This document shows positions 54,630-64,000 of a stretch of 64,000 nt of DNA, one piece after another. The notes beneath the pieces are model-generated. The model made no database searches, was not told the DNA's origin, and saw only the letters and a program-made list of their open reading frames with translations. Position 1 is the stretch's first letter; each line of letters starts with the position of its first letter. This DNA is from Cupriavidus taiwanensis LMG 19424 (GTDB lineage Bacteria; Pseudomonadota; Gammaproteobacteria; Burkholderiales; Burkholderiaceae). The DNA lies in assembly GCF_000069785.1 (NCBI RefSeq), contig NC_010530.1:62001-126000 (forward strand). The letters run 5' to 3'. The translations under genes were made by a program, and so were the position numbers.

Positions 54630-54665
54630 AAAGCACGCGCCCTGGCAGGCGCGTGCTTCTTTTTC
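54630..54665 (+). terminator. Rho-independent terminator after the porin
   Basis: AAGCACGCGCC-CTGGCA-GGCGCGTGCTT followed by CTTTTT, 38 bases after the stop codon. Confidence 0.92.
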
Positions 54666-54700: not shown

Positions 54701-54717
54701 TTTGACATGGTATCAAA
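54701..54717. promoter_or_regulatory. Operator and promoter of the catabolic operon
   Basis: TTTGACATGGTATCAAA is a TTTGA-N7-TCAAA dyad with the same geometry as at 53369. It covers the -35 box TTGACA; TACATT follows after 17 bases as -10 (54725-54730). Fourteen bases, ACCATTATTTGACA, are identical to the porin promoter. Confidence 0.7.
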
Positions 54718-54763
54718 TCGCGCCTACATTATTGAGACGGTAGCATTTATCAGAGGAGACATC

Positions 54764-56017
54764 GTGACAGATCAAGAGAAGCCGACGGTGACAGCGGGCA
54801 TGCGGGGGGCGTCATGGGACGCACGGCTGATGTCCAGACCCTATCAAATGGTCCCCTATGCACTCAACACGGCAGATGGCCAGCGCACGCTAGGCTTCTT
54901 GTTCACGGTCACGGGAAAAGAAAAGACCGTCGTCTCCCTGATGCACCCCCGCGAAATGGCCATCACCCATTACCTGGTGCCGTTCGTGCTGGACGCCGGC
55001 TGCGCCTGCTGGGTCCAGGGCCCGCGCTCGATTGGCAACGATCTGCGCCTGGAGCATGAACTCGCCTTGCTCGACGTAGCCGCCGGCATGGCCCACTTGC
55101 GCGAGCTGGGTTACGAGCGCATCGTGCTGCTAGGCAACTCCGGCGGCGCGGGGCTGTATGCCTTCTACAACCAGCAGTCGCAAGCCGCCTCCGACCAGCG
55201 CATCGCCCGCACGCCAGGCGGCCGCCCGACCAGCCTGGCCGAAGCCGAGATGCCCGTGGTCGACGGCATGATCCTGGTGTCGCCACACCCCGGCCAGGGC
55301 AAGCTGCTGATGAGCGGCCTCGACCCCTCCGTGGTCGACGAGAACGACCCCATGCAAACCGACCCGTCGCTCGACCCGTTCTCCGCCGCCAACGGCTTTG
55401 ATGCCGCCGCCGGGCGGGGCAGCTACGCGCCGGACTTTATTGCGCGCTACCGGGAAGCACAGGAGAAACGTGCGGCTCGCATCGACACCCGCGCCCGCGC
55501 ACTTCTCAAGGCGAAGCATGAAGCCAGGCAGCGCATCAAGGGCGGCAGCGGCACCGAAGCCGACCGCCGCGTGGCTGCGCATGCCCCCATCTTCCAGGTC
55601 TGGCGCACCGATGCCGACCTGCGCTCATGGGACATCTCGCTCGATCCCTCGGACCGCAAGACCGGCTCGCTGTGGGGCAGGGACCCGTTCGTGTCGAACT
55701 GGGGCAGCGTCGGCTTCGGCCGCGTGGTCACGCCGGAGTCGTGGCTGTCGACGTGGTCCGGGCTGTCGTCGAATGCCGCGCTCGACAAGACCCTGGATGC
55801 CCTGCACCAGCCCACGCTGCTGCTGGAATACACCGGCGACCAGTGCACCTTCCCGGCCGATATCGAAGCGATCTACCGCCAGATCCCCAGTGCGCGCAAG
55901 CAGCACCTGCGCGTGCGCGGCAACCACCACGGCATGGCGCTGAGCCGGGACGAAGAACCGGGCCAGCGCATCGCCGGCCGCCATATCGTCGCCTGGCTAC
56001 GCGAGAACATGAGCTAG
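54764..56017 (+). CDS. Alpha/beta-fold hydrolase
   Basis: The 417-residue cytoplasmic protein starts at GTG with AGGAG upstream. It has the nucleophile elbow LLGNSGGAG (Ser near residue 125), an acid candidate in LEYTGDQCTF near 356 and a catalytic His in GNHHGMAL near 386. A helical insert of about 150 residues sits between the elbow and the acid. It is the first gene of the operon and may hydrolyse an ester or amide precursor or a ring-cleavage product. The exact family is not recognised. Confidence 0.8.
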   Translation: MTDQEKPTVTAGMRGASWDARLMSRPYQMVPYALNTADGQRTLGFLFTVTGKEKTVVSLMHPREMAITHYLVPFVLDAGCACWVQGPRSIGNDLRLEHELALLDVAAGMAHLRELGYERIVLLGNSGGAGLYAFYNQQSQAASDQRIARTPGGRPTSLAEAEMPVVDGMILVSPHPGQGKLLMSGLDPSVVDENDPMQTDPSLDPFSAANGFDAAAGRGSYAPDFIARYREAQEKRAARIDTRARALLKAKHEARQRIKGGSGTEADRRVAAHAPIFQVWRTDADLRSWDISLDPSDRKTGSLWGRDPFVSNWGSVGFGRVVTPESWLSTWSGLSSNAALDKTLDALHQPTLLLEYTGDQCTFPADIEAIYRQIPSARKQHLRVRGNHHGMALSRDEEPGQRIAGRHIVAWLRENMS

Positions 56018-56107
56018 CCGGCAAGCCACCACCAGAGCCAGCGCGCCGTCGCCCCTCCGACACCAACGCACGCGGCTCCGACCATCGACAACACAGGGTA
56101 GAGACAC

Positions 56108-57808
56108 ATGCTGCAGAACCACACTGTCCGACCGCCGCAATTGCTGGCGGGCGTCCGGTATCCCGACGAAGATCGCCTGCGCCGCTATGTCGCCGAAGGC
56201 GTGCTGACCGGCGAATCCCTCGCGGGCGCCTTTCGTGAATCGTTCGAACGCCATGCCGACCGCCTGGCGCTGGCAGGCCCCGAAGGCGAGCTGACCTATC
56301 GCCAGCTCGACGAGCAGACCGACCGCCTGGCCGCCGCGCTGTTGGCGCTTGGCCTGAAGCCGCTGGACCGCGCCGTGTTCCAGTGCGGCAACTGCAATGA
56401 ACTGCTGCTGGCGTTCTTCGCCTGCCTGAAGGCCGGCATCATCCCGCTGTGCTCGCTGCAGGCGTTCCGCAAGCTGGAGATCAGCTACCTGGGCAACCTG
56501 TGCGAAGCGCGGCTGCACCTGGTGCAGGGCGACGATCCCAAGTTCGACGATGTGGCTTTCGCGGAAGAGATGCAGGCCGAGGTGCCGAGCTTTGCCCACG
56601 TCCTGCAGGCGCGCGGCGAGCGCCGTGGCAAGGCAGTGCTGCTGGCCGACCTGATCGAACAGATGCCGCTGGTCCGGGCGCGCGAGCTGCTCGCCGGCGT
56701 GCGGCACGATCCCTTCCAGGTGGCCGTGTTCCAGCTTTCGGGCGGCACCACCGGTGTGCCCAAGATCATCCCGCGCTTCCAGAACGAATACCTGTACAAC
56801 ATGCGCGCGGTGGCCGCGTGCAACGGCTACACGCAGGAAGACGTGCTGTTCTTCCCCACGCCGTACATGCACAACCTCAATATGGGCTGCTTCTTCGGCC
56901 CGTTCCTGCTGACCGGCGCGACCGTGACCGTGACGCCGGATATCGGCGAGGAGAACCTGCAGCGGCTGGTGCGCGACTACCGTCCGACCTGGTTCGGCGT
57001 GGCGGGGCCGATCCTGACGCGGATCGCGCCGGAGCTGGCCAAGGCGGGCGCGGCCGAGCGCGCGCGCCGCAACTTCGTCGCGCCGAAGAACGCGGCGGGG
57101 CTGACGCGGCTGACCGGCTCGCCGACGCACCACATCTTCGGCATGACCGAGGGCGTGATCATGTTCGCGCGCCGCGACGATCCGCAGGAGATCCGCGATA
57201 GCTCGGTCGGCAGCCCGGTGTCGGAGTACGACGAAGTGAAGATCGTCCATCCCGGCACCGAGGATCCGGTGCCGGACGGCGAGGCCGGCGAGGCGCTGTT
57301 CCGCGGCCCGTACACGATCCGCGGCTACTACAAGTCCGAGAAGGAAGACGTGACGCGCTTTACCGCCGACGGCTTCTACCGCTCCGGCGACCTGATGTCG
57401 TCGCGCGTGGTCGACGGGCGCCGCTACTACTTCTTCTGCGGCCGCATCAAGGACGTGGTCGACCGCGGTGGCGAGAAGATCAATGCGGAAGAGCTGGAGA
57501 ACGTGATCAACCTGCATCCGGCGGTGCTTGCCTGCGCCGTGGTGGGCATGCCCGACCGCATCTACGGCGAGCGCGTGTGCGCGTTCATCGTGCCCAAGCC
57601 GCCGGCTACCAGCCTGTCGCTGCCGCAGCTGACCGAGTACCTGCAGCAGGCGGGCCTGGCCAAATTCAAGTGGCCGGAGAGGGTGGAAGTTGTGCGCGAA
57701 TTCCCGCTGACCGCATCCGGCAAGCTCAGCAAGGCGCTGCTGCGCCAGCAGATCACCCAGACGCTCGAGGCCGAGGCGGCCCGTGGCAATACCAATGAAG
57801 GGAAGTGA
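56108..57808 (+). CDS. Aryl-acid--CoA/AMP ligase (EntE/DhbE-like)
   Basis: The 566-residue adenylating enzyme has motif A3 QLSGGTTGVPKIIPR near residue 210, A5 FGMTEG near 343, A7 YRSGDL, A8 RGGEKINAEELEN near 454 and the A10 lysine in PLTASGKLSKALL near 536. It is closest to aryl-AMP ligases acting on 2-hydroxy- or 2,3-dihydroxybenzoate. With a hydroxylase of the salicylyl-CoA 5-hydroxylase type and a thioesterase downstream, salicylate or a related aromatic acid is a reasonable substrate. It lies 90 bases after the hydrolase gene and 1 base before the next. Confidence 0.87.
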   Translation: MLQNHTVRPPQLLAGVRYPDEDRLRRYVAEGVLTGESLAGAFRESFERHADRLALAGPEGELTYRQLDEQTDRLAAALLALGLKPLDRAVFQCGNCNELLLAFFACLKAGIIPLCSLQAFRKLEISYLGNLCEARLHLVQGDDPKFDDVAFAEEMQAEVPSFAHVLQARGERRGKAVLLADLIEQMPLVRARELLAGVRHDPFQVAVFQLSGGTTGVPKIIPRFQNEYLYNMRAVAACNGYTQEDVLFFPTPYMHNLNMGCFFGPFLLTGATVTVTPDIGEENLQRLVRDYRPTWFGVAGPILTRIAPELAKAGAAERARRNFVAPKNAAGLTRLTGSPTHHIFGMTEGVIMFARRDDPQEIRDSSVGSPVSEYDEVKIVHPGTEDPVPDGEAGEALFRGPYTIRGYYKSEKEDVTRFTADGFYRSGDLMSSRVVDGRRYYFFCGRIKDVVDRGGEKINAEELENVINLHPAVLACAVVGMPDRIYGERVCAFIVPKPPATSLSLPQLTEYLQQAGLAKFKWPERVEVVREFPLTASGKLSKALLRQQITQTLEAEAARGNTNEGK

Positions 57809-57809
57809 G

Positions 57810-58691
57810 ATGACCCAAGCAACGACCCAAGCGACGAACATTGCCGCGGCGCCATCCGTGCAGCTGCATGGCGTGCACCACACCGCGCGCCCGACGTGGA
57901 AGCTGGCCGAGACCGTGCACTTCTACCGCGACCTGCTCGGCCTGCCGCTGGTGCATGCGATCTCTGCCAAGGGCTGGGGTCCGGACAACCATGCCGACTT
58001 CCTGCATTTTTTCTTCGACAGCGGCAACGGCAGCACCATCGCCTTCTTCTACTACATCGGCACCGAGCGTCCCGACTGGCTCACGGTGCGCGAGCACTAC
58101 CAGGACCGCGCCACGCATACCGCCTGGCGCGTGCGCGACGAGGCCGAGCTGCTGCGGTGGCGCCAGCGTGTCGAAGCGGTCGGCATCCCGCTGCGCTACC
58201 AGATCCGGCACGAGGTGATCGAGTCGATCTACTTCAACGATCCCAACGGCTATCCGATCGAAATTACCTGGCAGGTGCGTCCGTTCAGCGAGTCCGATGC
58301 CGAAGACGCACGGCTGACCATCGAGGCCGCCATCGGGCTGGAGAACGCCGGCAAGGATGGCGCGCCGTTCGGTTCGATCGAACCGGTGTGGCAGCGCAAG
58401 GCCGCGCTGATCGACAAGGCCGCGCCGGCGGGCAAGGCCTCGGTGTTCGTGCTCGACGTGCCCGAGTTCGCCGCGCTGCTGGACGTCGCCGACAAGACCG
58501 AAGGCTACGCCACCACGCCGCTCGGTAACGGCTACGTGCGCATCGACGGCAACCCCGGCATTCGCTTCGGCCGCAAGGCGCTCGGCTTCAAGCCGGCGGT
58601 CTGGTACGGCGCGCTGACCGGCGGGCTGGCAGGGCGCATCGAGCAGTTCGACATGGATGCATTGGTCATCGCCCCGGGGGAAGCCAAATGA
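57810..58691 (+). CDS. VOC-family (glyoxalase/extradiol dioxygenase-fold) enzyme
   Basis: The 293-residue protein has an N-terminal VOC module with a likely 2-His-1-Glu metal site: His 24 in GVHHTARP, His 103 in ATHTAWRV and Glu 151 in YPIEITW, as in type I extradiol dioxygenases and glyoxalases. HFYRDLLGLPLV and YFNDPNGYPIEI are typical. The C-terminal 120 residues look like a degenerate second module. The start at 57810 has AAGGGAAG upstream. In this operon it is the only candidate ring-cleaving dioxygenase in the window. A lyase or isomerase is also possible. Confidence 0.8.
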   Translation: MTQATTQATNIAAAPSVQLHGVHHTARPTWKLAETVHFYRDLLGLPLVHAISAKGWGPDNHADFLHFFFDSGNGSTIAFFYYIGTERPDWLTVREHYQDRATHTAWRVRDEAELLRWRQRVEAVGIPLRYQIRHEVIESIYFNDPNGYPIEITWQVRPFSESDAEDARLTIEAAIGLENAGKDGAPFGSIEPVWQRKAALIDKAAPAGKASVFVLDVPEFAALLDVADKTEGYATTPLGNGYVRIDGNPGIRFGRKALGFKPAVWYGALTGGLAGRIEQFDMDALVIAPGEAK

Positions 58692-59845
58692 AAGTCGCCA
58701 TTATCGGGGGCGGTCCGTCGGGGCTGTTCCTGGCTATCCTGCTGAAGGAGCGGCTCGCCGATGTCGACATCGACATCTACGAGCAAAACCCGGAAGACGC
58801 CACCTTTGGCTTCGGCGTGGTGCTGGCAGACACCGGGCTGTCCAATCTGCGCGCGGCCTCGCCGGCCGTGGTCGACGAGCTGGCGCGCGCGATGCGCTTC
58901 AGCGACCGCCATTCCATCGTCAGCCACGAGTACCCAATCACGATGAAGCGCCCGGGCGCGGGCGGCGGCGCGATCCCGCGCATCCGGCTGCTGCAGATCC
59001 TGCAGGCGCGCGCGCGCGAACTGGGCGTGCGGATTTCGTATAACCAGCGCATCAGCGATTTCTCGGCGATCGATGCCGATCTGGTGGTCGGCGCCGACGG
59101 CGTCAATTCGCTGCTGCGCGGCGCCAACGAGGCCGGTTTCGGCACGCGCCGCCATAGCCTGACCAACCACTTCGCGTGGTACGGCGTGGAAAAGCCGTTC
59201 CCGAACCCGGCGCTGGTGTTCCGCAAGTACGAGGGCGGGTATTTCGTCGCCCACTACTATCCCTACTCGGACGCGATGAGCACCTTCGTGGCCGAGTGCG
59301 ATCACCAGACCTGGCTCGACTTCGGCATGGAGGCGATGACGCAGGAAGAGCGCCAGGCGTTGTTCGAGAAGATCTTTGCCGCCGAGCTGGGCGGCTACCG
59401 GCTGGTGTCGAACAACTCGGTGTGGCGCCAGTTCCCGGTGATCGTCAATGACACCTGGCATGTCGGCAACCAGGTGCTGATCGGCGATGCGCTGACCAGC
59501 GCGCATTTCTCGATCGGCTCGGGCACGCGCATTGCCATGGAAGACGCGATCGCGCTGGCCGAGGCCATTGTCTCGTCGCCGGACGATGTGCAAGCGGCGC
59601 TGCAACGCTATGACGCCAAGCGCCGCCCGGAGAAGGCCAAGCTGATCAGCGCGTCGGAGGCCTCGTACAACTGGTACGAACGCATCCGCGAATGGATGGA
59701 TCTGCCCACGGCGCATGAGTTCGTGTTCCGCTTCATGACCCGCACCGGCCGCGTCGACCTGAACCGGCTGCGCGAGCAATACCCGAACCTGCTTGCCGAG
59801 CTGACGGCGGCGGGCGTGTCGGCGCCGGCAGGGCCGCACCCATGA
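58688..59845 (+). CDS. FAD-dependent monooxygenase, salicylyl-CoA/2-aminobenzoyl-CoA hydroxylase-like
   Basis: The 385-residue flavoprotein has the FAD motif IIGGGPSGLFLAILL at residues 5-19, FGFGVVLADTGLSNLRAA, which is typical of hydroxylases acting on aryl-CoA esters, the ADG motif in VVGADGVNSLLRG and the GD motif in VLIGDALTSAHFSIGSGTR. It corresponds to the FAD part of 2-aminobenzoyl-CoA monooxygenase or salicylyl-CoA 5-hydroxylase, without the extra C-terminal domain those can carry. It overlaps both neighbours by four bases. It should hydroxylate the CoA ester made by the ligase. Confidence 0.83.
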   Translation: MKVAIIGGGPSGLFLAILLKERLADVDIDIYEQNPEDATFGFGVVLADTGLSNLRAASPAVVDELARAMRFSDRHSIVSHEYPITMKRPGAGGGAIPRIRLLQILQARARELGVRISYNQRISDFSAIDADLVVGADGVNSLLRGANEAGFGTRRHSLTNHFAWYGVEKPFPNPALVFRKYEGGYFVAHYYPYSDAMSTFVAECDHQTWLDFGMEAMTQEERQALFEKIFAAELGGYRLVSNNSVWRQFPVIVNDTWHVGNQVLIGDALTSAHFSIGSGTRIAMEDAIALAEAIVSSPDDVQAALQRYDAKRRPEKAKLISASEASYNWYERIREWMDLPTAHEFVFRFMTRTGRVDLNRLREQYPNLLAELTAAGVSAPAGPHP

Positions 59846-60297
59846 TCCGCGCCACCGAGTACGTGCTGAGCGACCAGCCCTTCGTGGTGCGCCGCACCGT
59901 GCGCTGGGGCGACTGCGATCCGGCCGGGGTCGTCTACACCGGCCGTTTCACGGACTACCTGCTCGGTGCGGTGGGGCTGTTCTCCGACCATATCGCCGGC
60001 GGTGCGGGGCGGCTGGGCACTCTGCATGGTGTCGGTACGCCGTGCAAGGCCATGCGTTTCGAATTCATCGGCACGTTATGGCCTGACGATGTGATCGACA
60101 TCGAGTGCTGGATCGAAGCGATCCGCACGCGCTCCTACGACATCCGCTGCATGGCCCGGCGCCCCGACGGGAGCGCGGTGTTCGACGCGACCTTCTCGCC
60201 GATCTGCGTGCGGTTGGACGAACGTGTCGGCACGTCCATTCCCGACTCGCTGCGCGCCGCGCTGTCGGCCTTCCTGCGGCCCGCTACCGCGCGCTGA
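59842..60297 (+). CDS. Hotdog acyl-CoA thioesterase (4-hydroxybenzoyl-CoA type)
   Basis: The 151-residue protein has the 4-hydroxybenzoyl-CoA thioesterase motif RWGDCDPAGVVYTGRF; Asp 26 matches the catalytic Asp 17 of the Pseudomonas enzyme. It overlaps the hydroxylase gene by ATGA. In the pathway it would release the hydroxylated aromatic acid, for example gentisate from gentisyl-CoA. Confidence 0.87.
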   Translation: MIRATEYVLSDQPFVVRRTVRWGDCDPAGVVYTGRFTDYLLGAVGLFSDHIAGGAGRLGTLHGVGTPCKAMRFEFIGTLWPDDVIDIECWIEAIRTRSYDIRCMARRPDGSAVFDATFSPICVRLDERVGTSIPDSLRAALSAFLRPATAR

Positions 60298-60333
60298 TGC
60301 GCGGCGATGCCGCCGAATCTCTCGACTTCCATC

Positions 60334-61089
60334 ATGCAATACAGAATCGGACAGATCGTCCCCAGCTCCAACATCACCATGGAGCGCGAAGTCCCCGCCA
60401 TCTTCGCCGGCCGCATGCAGGTGCTGCCCGAGCGCTTCTCCTTCCATTCCAGCCGGGTGCGCATGCACCGCGTGGTGGCCGAGGAACTGGCGCAGATGAA
60501 CCGCGACATGGGCCGCTGCGCGCAGGAACTTGCCGATGCGCGCGTCGACATCATGAGCACCGCATGCCTGGTCGCGACCATGTGCATGGGGCAGGGCTAC
60601 CACCGGCAGGTCATCGAAGACCTTACCGCGGCGATCGGCGACGGGCCGCACCTGCCTGAAGTGATGACCTCCGCCGGCGCACTGGTGGAAGAGCTGAAGG
60701 ACTTCGGCGCGCGCCGCATTGCGCTGCTGGCGCCATACAGCGACGCACTCACGCGCACCGTGGTCGACTACATCGAAAGCGAAGGCATCGCGGTGCAGGA
60801 TGCGATCAATTTCTCGATCCTCGACAACCTGGAAGTCGGCGCGCGCGATCCGATGCAGCTGCTGCAGGACGTGCAGCGTCTAAATACCGCCGGCGTCGAT
60901 GTGGTGGTGCTGTCCGCCTGCGTGCAGATGCCGTCGCTGGCGGCGCTGGAGCCGGCCCAGCAGGCGCTCGGCATCCCGGTGACATCGACGGCGGCCTGCA
61001 CCGCGCGCCAGATGCTGCGCCGGCTCGGCCTGCGCGCCGAAGCGCCCGGCGCCGGCGCCTTGCTCGGCAGCCGCACCGGACTGGCATGA
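60334..61089 (+). CDS. Maleate cis-trans isomerase-like protein (Asp/Glu racemase superfamily)
   Basis: The 251-residue protein starts YRIGQIVPSSNITMEREVP after the initiator, as maleate isomerases do. It has the two expected cysteines, Cys 78 in MSTACLVATM and Cys 196 in VLSACVQMP, matching the catalytic pair of maleate isomerase in spacing. Arylmalonate decarboxylase is related but has one cysteine. It would turn maleate into fumarate. ATG 60334 was preferred over 60307 because the family begins there. It follows the thioesterase gene by 36 bases. Confidence 0.83.
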   Translation: MQYRIGQIVPSSNITMEREVPAIFAGRMQVLPERFSFHSSRVRMHRVVAEELAQMNRDMGRCAQELADARVDIMSTACLVATMCMGQGYHRQVIEDLTAAIGDGPHLPEVMTSAGALVEELKDFGARRIALLAPYSDALTRTVVDYIESEGIAVQDAINFSILDNLEVGARDPMQLLQDVQRLNTAGVDVVVLSACVQMPSLAALEPAQQALGIPVTSTAACTARQMLRRLGLRAEAPGAGALLGSRTGLA

Positions 61090-61142
61090 CACAAAAGCGA
61101 CCGCCCGCAGAGACGGTAACCATCCGCAACGGAGACACCACC

Positions 61143-62402
61143 ATGCAGCAAGCCCCCCAACCGGCGCCGGCCGCCGGCCGCTGGACCTATGTCGTCGTCA
61201 TCCTGGGTGCGGCGCTCGGGATGCTCGCGGGTTACGCCCCGCTGTTCAACGCCACCGCCGGCGTCTTCGTGCAGCCGCTGGCGCAGGAGTTCGGCTGGGG
61301 CCGCTCGGAAGCTTCGCTGTCTTACGCGGCGTCGATGTTCGGGCTGGCGGTGGTCAGCCCGCTGGTCGGCACGATGATGGACCGCTTCGGCATCCGCCGG
61401 GTGATCGCGGCGTCGGCGCTGGTGTTCGGCATCGCCACGGCATGCATGGCCTTGCAGGATGGCAGCAAGACGATGTGGGTGAGCCTGTCGGTGGTGGTTG
61501 GCGTGTTTGGCGCTGCGACCTCGGTGCTGGGCTATCTGGCGGTGCTGCCGCAGTGGTTCGACCGGCGTTTGGGGCTGGCGCTTGGCATCGCGATGTGCGG
61601 CCTCGGCGCGGGCACGGTGCTGATGCCGGCCACCGCGCAGTACCTCGTCACTGGCTACGGCTGGCGCACGGCTTATGTTGCGCTGGGACTCGGGTCGATC
61701 GTGCTGTCGCTGCTGGCCTGCGCGCTGCTGCGCGAGCGCCGCGTGCCCGGCATGGCGCGTGCCGCATCAAAGGCGGCAGCGCCCGGGGTGCCGCTGCGCG
61801 AGGCGCTGCGCAGCTACCGCCTGTGGGCGATCTGGGGGGTGTTTATCCTGGCGTCGTCGGCAACGCTGTCGCTGGGGCCGCACCTGCCGGCGATGTTTGC
61901 CGACAAGGGCTTCAGCCCGGCCGAAGCGGCACGCAGCGCGTCGATGGTCGGTGTGGGGCTGCTGGTGGGCCGCATCCTGACCGGGGTGCTGATCGATCGC
62001 ATCCATGCGCCGTTCGTCGCCTGCGTGTTCTTTGTCGGCGGTGCCGCGGGCATCTACCTGCTCGGCGTCACGCGGGATTACCAGTTGCTGCTGGTCGCCG
62101 CCACGCTGATCGGGCTGACCATCGGCGCGGAGGGCGACCTGATCTCTTACCTCGTGCGCTCGTATTTCGGGCTGCGCGCGTTCGGGGCGCTGTTCGGGAT
62201 TGCGTTCTCCGGCTACGGCTTTGGCGCGGTGATCGGGCCGATAGGGCTTGGAGGCTGGTTCGACCAACATGGCAACTACGACACGGCGCTGCTGGTGCTG
62301 CCGTGCATGCTGCTGGCGGCGGGGGCGCTGACGCTGTCGCTGGGGCGTTACCTGCGCCCGAGCACTCATGGTTCGGGCTTGCCCGAGCCCGCCGGCGCCT
62401 GA
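61143..62402 (+). CDS. MFS transporter of the catabolic operon
   Basis: The 419-residue inner-membrane protein has 12 helices in the monocarboxylate/OFA-like MFS pattern: YVVVILGAALGMLAGYAPLF, SLSYAASMFGLAVVSPLVG, MMDRFGIRRVI in loop 2-3 and VLIDRIHAPFVACVFF in loop 8-9. CGGAGA precedes ATG 61143; an ATG at 61086 overlapping the isomerase stop is possible. It probably imports the aromatic or dicarboxylic acid used by the operon. Confidence 0.86.
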   Translation: MQQAPQPAPAAGRWTYVVVILGAALGMLAGYAPLFNATAGVFVQPLAQEFGWGRSEASLSYAASMFGLAVVSPLVGTMMDRFGIRRVIAASALVFGIATACMALQDGSKTMWVSLSVVVGVFGAATSVLGYLAVLPQWFDRRLGLALGIAMCGLGAGTVLMPATAQYLVTGYGWRTAYVALGLGSIVLSLLACALLRERRVPGMARAASKAAAPGVPLREALRSYRLWAIWGVFILASSATLSLGPHLPAMFADKGFSPAEAARSASMVGVGLLVGRILTGVLIDRIHAPFVACVFFVGGAAGIYLLGVTRDYQLLLVAATLIGLTIGAEGDLISYLVRSYFGLRAFGALFGIAFSGYGFGAVIGPIGLGGWFDQHGNYDTALLVLPCMLLAAGALTLSLGRYLRPSTHGSGLPEPAGA

Positions 62403-62438
62403 GTTCGCCATGGCTGGCGCAGCACGGTAAAATTACCA

Positions 62439-62459
62439 GGGCCGCAATTTATGCGGCCC
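62439..62459. promoter_or_regulatory. Perfect inverted repeat before the TetR gene
   Basis: GGGCCGCA-ATTTA-TGCGGCCC is an 8-bp perfect stem ending one base before the GTG start. A TAAAAT -10-like box (62428-62433) would start transcription at its left edge. It can be an autoregulatory operator, an RNA hairpin that hides the start, or a terminator without T run. Confidence 0.5.
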
Positions 62460-62460
62460 T

Positions 62461-63309
62461 GTGTCCACGACCGGTCAGACCAACATGCCAGCCGCACGCC
62501 GCAATCCTACTGCCGCCGCAACCGCCGCAAGCGCCGGAAAAACTGCCGCCACCCCCACTGCGCCGCGCCGCCGTGGTCGGCCGCCCAAGACAGAATCGCC
62601 CATCGGCGCCGAGCCGATGCTGAGCCGGGTTGCGATCCTGCAGCATGCGATCAAGCTTGCCAAGTCCATGCCACTGGACCAGATCTCGATGGTGCAGCTG
62701 GCCAGGGATTTTGGCGTGGCGCCCGGGTTGATCCACTATTACCTCGGGGGCCGTGACCAGCTGGTGTCCGGCGTGCTCAACGACTACTACCGCCAGCGCG
62801 TTGGGGCGCTGCCGTCGCTGACCGGCGACTGGCGAGCCGACGTGGAGGGAATTGCAAGGCTCAGCTTTGAAGTGGCGGTGGAGAATCCTGGCGTCAGCAT
62901 TTACGTGGCTTCGCACAACCGCTTCCGCCTGTTCCAGGACGTCGAACCGGGCGAGACGGATTACGGGATGGAGTTCTTCAACCGGATGACGTCGGCCATC
63001 ATGCAGGGCGGATTTACGGCCGAACAGGTGGCCCTGGGCTATCACCTGATTGCGCAGTATCTGGTGTCGGCCAGCATGGCCGAGGCCTCGCGGCAGCTCC
63101 CCGCTTATCACCAGGCATTTATTGAGAAGAAGCTGGAGTCGGCCTCCGAGCTGCAGTATCCGGGGGCGCGCTTTGTCAGCAAGGCGTTTTCGCGGCTGTC
63201 TTCCGATAGTGCCTTCGAAGAAGGATTGCGCATCACGCTTGATGGCATCGAGGCGTGGAAGCGGCAGAGTCGCCAGCCGTTGCGAAAATCCCGGGACAAG
63301 GCCGCCTGA
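62461..63309 (+). CDS. TetR-family regulator of the catabolic island
   Basis: The 282-residue protein has an Ala/Thr-rich N-terminal tail of about 40 residues ending in RRRGRPPK, an AT-hook-like motif. A TetR helix-turn-helix follows (SMVQLARDFGVAPGLIHYYL), then a ligand-binding domain. The start is GTG 62461 or ATG 62485; neither has a clear Shine-Dalgarno sequence. It follows the MFS gene by 58 bases. It is the only regulator in the island and so the best candidate to bind the TTTGA-N7-TCAAA operators. Confidence 0.85.
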   Translation: MSTTGQTNMPAARRNPTAAATAASAGKTAATPTAPRRRGRPPKTESPIGAEPMLSRVAILQHAIKLAKSMPLDQISMVQLARDFGVAPGLIHYYLGGRDQLVSGVLNDYYRQRVGALPSLTGDWRADVEGIARLSFEVAVENPGVSIYVASHNRFRLFQDVEPGETDYGMEFFNRMTSAIMQGGFTAEQVALGYHLIAQYLVSASMAEASRQLPAYHQAFIEKKLESASELQYPGARFVSKAFSRLSSDSAFEEGLRITLDGIEAWKRQSRQPLRKSRDKAA

Positions 63310-63428: not shown

Positions 63429-63478
63429 GCATTGCCACGCCGCCCCCGGCAGGCTGTGCGCCATACATGGGAGACAAC

Positions 63479-64000
63479 ATGAAACGTCGCGCCTGCCTCG
63501 GGCTGCTTCTTCTTGCCGGGCTTACCGCCACGGCTTCTGCCAACGCTGCTGCCTATCCGGAGAAGATGGTTCGCATCGTAGTGCCATCGATCGCGGGCAG
63601 CGCCCCCGACATCATCGCGCGCCAGGTTGCCGAACGCCTTACTGCCGTGTGGAAACAGCAGGTCATCGTCGAAAACAAGCCAGGCGGCAACGGCATTGTT
63701 GCCATGACTGCACTGCGGCAATCGGCGCCGGACGGCTACACACTGGGCCTGTTCCATGCTGCGGCCGCAGTGATCACGCCAATGATGTACAAGGAGGCCA
63801 AGTTCGACATTCAGCGGGACACGGAGGTCGCGTCGACACTGGCCTACACGCCCATGATGTTCGTTGCCGATCCTAAATCGGGATACCAAAGTCTTGCTGA
63901 AGTGCTCAAGGCAGGAAAGGCTAGTCCAGACGATATCGCCATCGGCAGTCCGACCCGTGGATCAGTGCCTCACTTGACCGCCGAGATGATGGGCCAGTTG
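63479..64000 (+). CDS. Bug/TctC-family solute receptor, partial (cut by window end)
   Basis: The first 174 residues of a Bug receptor are present; the gene continues beyond the window. The signal peptide MKRRACLGLLLLAGLTATASA is followed by YPEKMVRIVVPSIAGSAPD, and ENKPGGNGIVAMTALRQSAPDG is the second family mark. GGAGA precedes the ATG. Like the porin gene it uses a less GC-biased codon set. Its promoter shares elements with the porin promoter, so it likely supplies the same catabolic pathway. Confidence 0.88.
   Translation, partial: MKRRACLGLLLLAGLTATASANAAAYPEKMVRIVVPSIAGSAPDIIARQVAERLTAVWKQQVIVENKPGGNGIVAMTALRQSAPDGYTLGLFHAAAAVITPMMYKEAKFDIQRDTEVASTLAYTPMMFVADPKSGYQSLAEVLKAGKASPDDIAIGSPTRGSVPHLTAEMMGQL

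Follow-up and report, generated by a model that had tools for sequence, protein, structure and literature searches.

A putative CoA-dependent route for a salicylate-type acid with a VOC-family ring-opening candidate in an operon of Cupriavidus taiwanensis

The 64,000-nucleotide stretch of Cupriavidus taiwanensis LMG 19424 analyzed here (the window; positions 62001-126000 of contig C3, in a 6.48-Mb genome of three contigs that is 100% complete) contains at 54764-63309 an operon of seven genes, HYD-LIG-VOC-FMO-TE-MAI-MFS, with a TetR-type regulator gene behind them. On balance, sequence comparisons favor a self-contained route for a salicylate-type acid, in which the VOC protein would open the aromatic ring, the hydrolase HYD would cut the resulting product, and the isomerase-like protein MAI would deliver fumarate. 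The features of the locus, in window coordinates, are as follows.

54631-54658: terminator-like hairpin behind the upstream porin gene, 5′ of the promoter-like site
54702-54730, + strand: promoter-like site TTGACA-17-TACATT, 5′ of HYD; a consensus match only, weak against shuffles since two such sites were found with 1.2 expected
54764-56017, + strand: HYD, serine hydrolase of the α/β type, 417 amino acids (aa), GTG start, no Pfam match; proposed C–C hydrolase
56108-57808, + strand: LIG, AMP-forming ligase of the EntE/DhbE type; putative salicylate(-like) acid:CoA ligase
57810-58691, + strand: VOC, PF00903 protein with H24/H103/E151; proposed ring-cleaving dioxygenase
58688-59845, + strand: FMO, single-domain FAD monooxygenase of the salicylyl-CoA 5-hydroxylase/VioD group
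59842-60297, + strand: TE, 4HBT_2 (PF13279) hot-dog thioesterase with the catalytic Asp of CDPAG kept
60307-61089, + strand: MAI, maleate cis-trans isomerase-like protein with both Cys kept
61086-62402, + strand: MFS transporter, likely an acid importer
62461-63309, + strand: TetR-type regulator (TetR_C_1)
63467-64000, + strand: solute receptor, presumably of the Bug/TctC type (a name supported by the annotation of relatives), likely accessory, continuing beyond the window end

All eight operon genes are open reading frames (ORFs) on the forward strand without internal stops; for VOC, an alternative upstream ATG at 57795 is possible. An earlier note on this DNA had described eight tightly spaced genes with ATGA overlaps. 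Its gene order and ORFs hold, but its account of the spacing was slightly generous: overlaps are limited to the VOC/FMO, FMO/TE, and MAI/MFS junctions, and the remaining gaps measure 90 (HYD/LIG), 1 (LIG/VOC), 9 (TE/MAI), and 58 (MFS/TetR) bases. The note had also proposed looking for the same gene order in other genomes. It is present in C. metallidurans CH34 (L005; 76-84% identity), and because the order is kept there and the core of the cluster is kept in many other loci, the cluster is not a chance assembly. The family calls of the note agree with Pfam and NCBIfam profile matches and with matches to solved structures; it named the VOC and HYD genes and gave neither of them a step.

LIG scores 365 bits against the EntE/DhbE-type model TIGR02275, under the cut-off of 724, and its closest solved relatives are the aryl-acid adenylation enzymes 6e8o and 5wm2. 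The residue at the DhbE Ser240 position, which we take to decide between salicylate and 2,3-dihydroxybenzoate, is Cys in the window LIG and in the salicylate enzymes 5wm2 and PchD, and Ser in three 2,3-dihydroxybenzoate enzymes (6e8o, 1md9, and 4iz6). LIG combines the HN motif with Cys in place of Ser240, as a salicylate-type ligase would. FMO exceeds the cut-off for PF01494. Its best NCBIfam models, NF006101 (salicylyl-CoA 5-hydroxylase) and VioD, are both matched below cut-off (322 bits for NF006101, which has a cut-off of 1078); NF006101 represents a two-domain bifunctional enzyme of 768 positions, of which FMO spans positions 1-380. In a phylogenetic tree whose long branches call for caution, FMO groups with cehH-type hydroxylases from loci that encode a cupin gentisate 1,2-dioxygenase (GDO) (99/96), with VioD, long (probably bifunctional) enzymes, and the FMO of another cassette type on the outgroup side. 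Three of the seven non-cassette relatives in the cehH clade were observed with a GDO. TE retains the Asp of CDPAG, the 4-hydroxybenzoyl-CoA thioesterase motif, in 65/65 rows, and we presume this residue to be catalytic. MAI has the features of a maleate isomerase, in that nearly its whole length matches 4fq7 (E 1.1e-68) and 2xec and each of two Cys residues occurs in 56/56 rows; we take these to be the active-site residues (4fq5 is by its sequence a mutant of the second Cys). The outline in the earlier note, which ran from acid to CoA ester, hydroxylation, thioester hydrolysis, ring cleavage, and isomerization of maleate to fumarate, fits these enzyme families and the catalytic residues checked.

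VOC, whose closest named relatives are from Cupriavidus (97% identity), exceeds the PF00903 cut-off. H24 and H103 are present in 87/87 rows and E151 in all 77 displayed of 87; all three residues are invariant in alignments of 27 and 45 VOC sequences (A3 and A4). By analogy with known VOC enzymes, H24, H103, and E151 probably act as metal ligands. VOC family membership together with such a 2-His-1-carboxylate site is expected of a type I extradiol dioxygenase, and both are found here. The AlphaFold2 model (pLDDT 90.6) contains two β-α-β-β-β modules, and the dioxygenase models of NCBIfam match VOC far below their cut-offs. The C-terminal ~90 aa of VOC (about 58410-58691) correspond to a separate small ORF of ~80-98 aa in α-proteobacteria and Actinobacteria (L006:12678-12938, L007:15822-16082, and L112:8684-8929) and are matched in a frame of their own in another type of cassette from the same genus (L130 and L131). 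No Pfam family matches this domain above cut-off, one copy giving a sub-threshold match to MmoB_DmpM (E 0.03); Y42, R55, A63, and W65 (fragment numbering) are invariant across eight sequences.

No Pfam or NCBIfam family matches HYD at E<=0.001. The GxSxG nucleophile, the Asp, and the His of a serine hydrolase are nevertheless present: GxSGG occurs in 90/90 rows, (T/S)GD in 82 displayed of 90, and H389 is nearly invariant. The AlphaFold2 model of HYD has a pLDDT of 91.9. Divergent HYD relatives occur at 13 places in 12/398 genomes of a phylum sample, with a VOC gene within 5 kb in 5/13 and HgmA in 1/13 (L108). In Rhodococcus oxybenzonivorans (L015), a HYD relative follows a homogentisate-dioxygenase-type cupin.

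The two genes travel together. Genes for VOC relatives mark 194 loci in GTDB genomes, some of which give two loci; we surveyed the best 80 and sought partner genes by tblastn within 10 kb using score thresholds; some contigs end early. HYD was found in all 80 loci, LIG in 80, FMO in 78, TE in 60, and MAI in 52, with all six enzymes together in 45; cupin GDO was found in none and an FAH-fold gene in four. In a genus sample of 60 genomes, each of 28 VOC copies (in 22 genomes) has HYD on the same strand with starts <=3.2 kb apart, the HYD matches of G048 coming in two pieces. Only one other genome, G052, has a HYD of >=57% identity, and the adjoining VOC there lies in overlapping frame-shifted pieces. 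Four genomes (G014, G015, G030, and G059) have a HYD relative of 35-44% identity and no VOC match at 1e-40, and G006 and G048 have additional HYD copies of this kind; near the low-identity HYD of G015 (L103) and of G006 (L132) lies a VOC gene of greater divergence. Among 72,556 plasmid records, the 16 with a VOC covered over >80% are the same 16 that have a HYD of >=42% identity; the two genes are 10 to 14 kb apart in the Mycobacterium avium and Streptomyces NBC_01450 plasmid records. Three of five actinobacterial loci examined (L012 and L112, from Rhodococcus USK13 and Tsukamurella, and L111, from S. chartreusis) have the order MAI-VOC-small subunit-HYD; of the remaining two, L013 reads FMO-LIG-VOC-small subunit-HYD and revealed no MAI, and the cluster of L113 is split. 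Distant VOC and HYD genes also adjoin in Variovorax SRS16, C. necator N-1, and Bosea (L014, L017, and L115), where MAI was undetected. Co-occurrence of this kind would be expected if one protein opened a ring and the other hydrolyzed the resulting compound, and the presence of MAI points to maleate or a relative as the product.

Some of these loci have further features of their own. In the Variovorax locus, further genes encode another CoA ligase, thioesterase, and FAD monooxygenase. The distant VOC-HYD pairs of L014 (7373-10926) and L099 stand beside an MhpA-like FAD monooxygenase of the PRK08132 type and, in L014, a DUF2783 gene, a context that perhaps represents a related route for another phenol. 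Cupriavidus sp. LEh25 carries the operon twice, on separate contigs (L018 and L019).

The genomic background bears on how the ring might be opened. The earlier note had found neither a cupin GDO nor an FAH-fold hydrolase in the window, and this holds: nine FAA_hydrolase matches exist in the genome, all outside the window, and the GDO model TIGR02272, which recognizes even divergent GDOs (E 1e-74 to 1e-81), has 0 matches at E<=0.001 in the complete genome, a search that did not extend to small monocupin dioxygenases. The suggestion in the note that the middle steps are encoded to the right therefore finds no support in the case of a cupin GDO. Its other suggestion, that they may be new, gains support, as VOC and HYD form the constant core of the cluster and are natural candidates for ring cleavage and C–C hydrolysis. 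Most likely, the missing middle steps are VOC and HYD themselves, inside the operon. The interpretation in the note is thus partly supported. Across the genus sample, a GDO match is present in 40/60 genomes. This VOC type (E below 1e-150) occurs in 20/60, with a GDO match in 14 and none in six. In those six, this genome included, any gentisate that the operon produced could be degraded no further without another enzyme to open it.

Based on these findings, we infer the reactions and the identity of the acid as follows. First, LIG would adenylate the acid and form its CoA ester. FMO would then hydroxylate the ring para to the 2-hydroxyl group, yielding gentisyl-CoA or an analogue, from which TE would release gentisate. 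VOC, as a metal dioxygenase unrelated to cupin GDO, would open the C1–C2 bond to give maleylpyruvate; HYD, as a serine hydrolase, would cleave a C–C bond of this product to maleate and pyruvate; and finally MAI would convert maleate to fumarate. Among familiar routes, it is gentisate-type cleavage followed by hydrolysis that gives maleate and pyruvate. In its specific form the proposal is more tentative, and we hold it at slightly less than an even chance: VOC would be a 1,2-dioxygenase for gentisate or a substituted gentisate, with a fold new to this reaction and a ~90-aa accessory domain, and HYD would represent a new family of C–C hydrolases; with MAI, the two would form a gentisate pathway unrelated to the first and shared by at least two phyla. 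A maleate isomerase would also suit a pyridine-type pathway resembling nicotinate or picolinate breakdown, in which VOC would open a dihydroxypyridine, HYD would deformylate the product, and MAI would end the route; the nicotinate pathway has both a maleate isomerase and an α/β-hydrolase deformylase. However, Pfam and NCBIfam models reveal no maleamate amidase candidate among the operon genes, and a CoA ligase, hydroxylase, and thioesterase are not known to belong to the nicotinate route, which makes this explanation very improbable.

Several observations weigh against the proposed gentisate-type route, and the first group concerns the two central proteins. The closest solved relative of VOC, 9u42, is named only ‘Glyoxalase’, and the non-oxygenase families FosB and glyoxalase I also match the VOC profile. 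The role of HYD as a C–C hydrolase is proposed from its pairing with dioxygenase genes and not from its sequence, whose profile matches are weak (best E 1e-6) and fall on α/β hydrolases including esterases and lipases. At 7/13 places with divergent HYD relatives, the queries used found no ring-cleavage gene within 5 kb (one or two neighbors were scanned with Pfam in six of these places and none in L109). Nor did they find a GDO, VOC, or HYD around four further cehH-group FMO relatives (L117-L119 and L123; contexts L125-L128, 10-16 kb each), and the argument from GDO-linked relatives therefore rests on three loci. HYD might instead be an upstream esterase that frees salicylate from an ester, with VOC a non-oxygenase (an isomerase or glyoxalase-like protein) and ring opening left to an enzyme encoded elsewhere, for example a small monocupin, the class that our GDO search did not cover; the position of HYD as the first gene of the operon would suit this role, as would its esterase and lipase matches and the glyoxalase and FosB matches of VOC. 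Yet the VOC-HYD pair persists across two phyla amid changes in the upper genes, HYD relatives lie beside a homogentisate-dioxygenase-type cupin and near HgmA, and the genome has no GDO match. We consider this alternative improbable.

The second group concerns the completeness of the cassette. MAI was undetected within 10 kb in 28/80 loci and TE in 20/80, early contig ends contributing in some cases. Among 13 representative neighbor proteins scanned from loci without MAI, none was a substitute for MAI, such as a maleate hydratase; they comprise transport components, regulators, an outer-membrane protein, a thiolase, a gluconolactonase-like protein, an alcohol dehydrogenase, a methyltransferase, and a sulfite dehydrogenase. 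The loci in which TE was undetected would be easier to accommodate in a variant of the proposed route in which VOC acts on gentisyl-CoA and TE or HYD frees CoA or the acid after cleavage. The gene order HYD-LIG-VOC-FMO-TE agrees with this variant, and so do the other CoA-ligase and thioesterase genes that accompany VOC and HYD in L014. By contrast, L012 combines MAI-VOC-HYD with a ligase and no detected relative of FMO or TE, and L017 has VOC and HYD with no detected relative of LIG, FMO, TE, or MAI. Cleavage at the CoA-ester stage thus seems unlikely, somewhat less so than the esterase alternative.

The third group concerns redundancy. The idea that the cassette replaces GDO across the genus was rejected, as a GDO match accompanies this VOC type in 14/20 genomes and is present in 26/40 of the others. 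The cassettes fall into two main types. Of 89 aligned ligases, counting that of the window, 48 have Cys at the pocket position, 35 have Tyr, and three have a different residue; the last three are unrelated ligases. The second type in the genus (L130 and L131; G044 and G003) reads HYD-VOC-small subunit-LIG-MAI-FMO. Both types, as judged from their VOC-HYD pairs, occur in four genus genomes (G002, G003, G017, and G019), all of which have a GDO. Moreover, an S. chartreusis plasmid (L111:2104-10086) carries a classical gentisate operon (cupin GDO, FAH-fold protein, and mycothiol-dependent maleylpyruvate isomerase) beside MAI-VOC-small subunit-HYD-LIG; two transposase genes separate the two sets. 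A natural swap, in which this type of ligase and hydroxylase would stand with a cupin GDO replacing VOC-HYD, was absent from the five plasmid matches inspected. In favor of the proposed route, FMO of L058, L060, and L074 falls on the window's side of the tree, although VOC, HYD, and LIG group with those of L062, which has the other type of FMO. Hydroxylases have thus been exchanged around a constant VOC-HYD-LIG set, which points to a reaction type common to the cassettes.

Such redundancy, with two cassette types and GDO alongside, suggests that the substrate is a substituted gentisate or another analogue, and is easier to understand if the VOC enzymes act on particular substituted gentisates. 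The same chemistry might then operate on another ring, that is, a substituted salicylate (methyl-, hydroxy-, or halo-) or other ortho-substituted benzoate, with VOC and HYD specific for the substituted gentisate and MAI acting on maleate or a substituted maleate. This is consistent with ligase pockets that differ between cassette types while VOC, HYD, and MAI remain related, with the four genomes that hold both types, and with the coexistence of GDO in the 14 genomes and on the Streptomyces plasmid. Nonetheless, the window LIG has the salicylate-type Cys, FMO groups with cehH-type hydroxylases, and plain gentisate would need another opener in the six genomes without a GDO match. We regard a substituted ring as rather unlikely, though the least so of the alternatives; it overlaps in part with the preferred explanation, and the probabilities we assign to the two do not add up to certainty.

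With regard to the genes that accompany the enzymes, relatives of the MFS transporter were found in 23/80 loci, of the TetR-type regulator in 43/80, and of the solute receptor in 27/80; other loci have TRAP, ABC, or Bug/TTT genes close by. A ten-pair palindrome (62437-62461) immediately 5′ of the TetR gene is a possible operator. A search for a TetR operator upstream of HYD, as an inverted repeat of >=12, yielded none.

If the proposed gentisate-type route is correct, genome surveys based on cupin GDO overlook the breakdown of salicylate and gentisate at some of the loci found here in Burkholderiales, Pseudomonas, Azospirillum, and Actinobacteria. The capacity to degrade salicylate would matter for root microbes, because salicylate is a plant immune hormone. 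The proposal also offers a testable function for two uncharacterized families, VOC with its small domain and HYD.

Each component can be set beside a known system. MAI resembles the maleate isomerases 4fq7/4fq5 and 2xec, with a near full-length match and both Cys, but its context is that of an aromatic acid and not of nicotinate breakdown. The α/β-hydrolases BphD and MhpC are C–C hydrolases of meta-cleavage pathways, in which a serine hydrolase gene is likewise paired with that of a VOC ring-cleavage enzyme, or here candidate. Unlike them, HYD has no Pfam match, its solved-structure matches are weak and to other enzymes, and its substrate is predicted to be a gentisate-type and not a catechol-type cleavage product. 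For VOC, the nearest functional parallels are PcpA and LinE (VOC lineage 3), yet no PcpA or LinE chain is named among the VOC profile matches, and the putative relative MhqO (3oaj) matches weakly. The window VOC differs in having one predicted metal site together with a new ~90-aa C-terminal domain, and its substrate is predicted to carry a carboxylate. PcpA and LinE are described, in the passages of PMC4250580 and PMC3727088 that deal with them, as VOC-superfamily metal enzymes that open 1,4-diols; the AromaDeg passage of PMC4250580 describes gentisate dioxygenases as cupins.

The classical gentisate pathway (nag, mhb, and Hbz) has the same predicted intermediates as the window operon. Its maleylpyruvate-hydrolase branch also gives maleate and pyruvate. 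The classical pathway, however, uses cupin GDO and HbzF, the latter presumably an FAH-fold hydrolase; neither is in the window operon, and a GDO match is nowhere in the genome. With cupin GDO as the defining enzyme, the operon falls outside the classical pathway, although it is predicted to function in a similar way.

The closest counterpart is the CoA-dependent conversion of salicylate to gentisate. The sdg genes of Streptomyces WA46 reportedly constitute such a route. Together with the genes annotated as cehG/cehH/cehI in Agrobacterium (L010), they share with the window operon a CoA ligase, a same-family FAD salicylyl-CoA 5-hydroxylase, and a thioesterase; for the last, L010 has cehI, and L009 likewise encodes a thioesterase. 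Both L009 and L010 have ligases that are no more than distant relatives of the window LIG. Three CoA-route loci examined carry cupin GDO and FAH-fold genes, with a maleylpyruvate-isomerase-type gene in two of the three, whereas the window operon has VOC, HYD, and MAI instead. The sdg route is treated in PMC13215587 and PMC6460240. In the open-licence literature, we recognized no paper that deals with this cassette, with cehG/cehH, or with a gentisate dioxygenase of the VOC family. Overall, we favor, with somewhat more confidence than doubt, a modified form of the CoA-dependent gentisate route in which a module unrelated to cupin GDO would open the ring.

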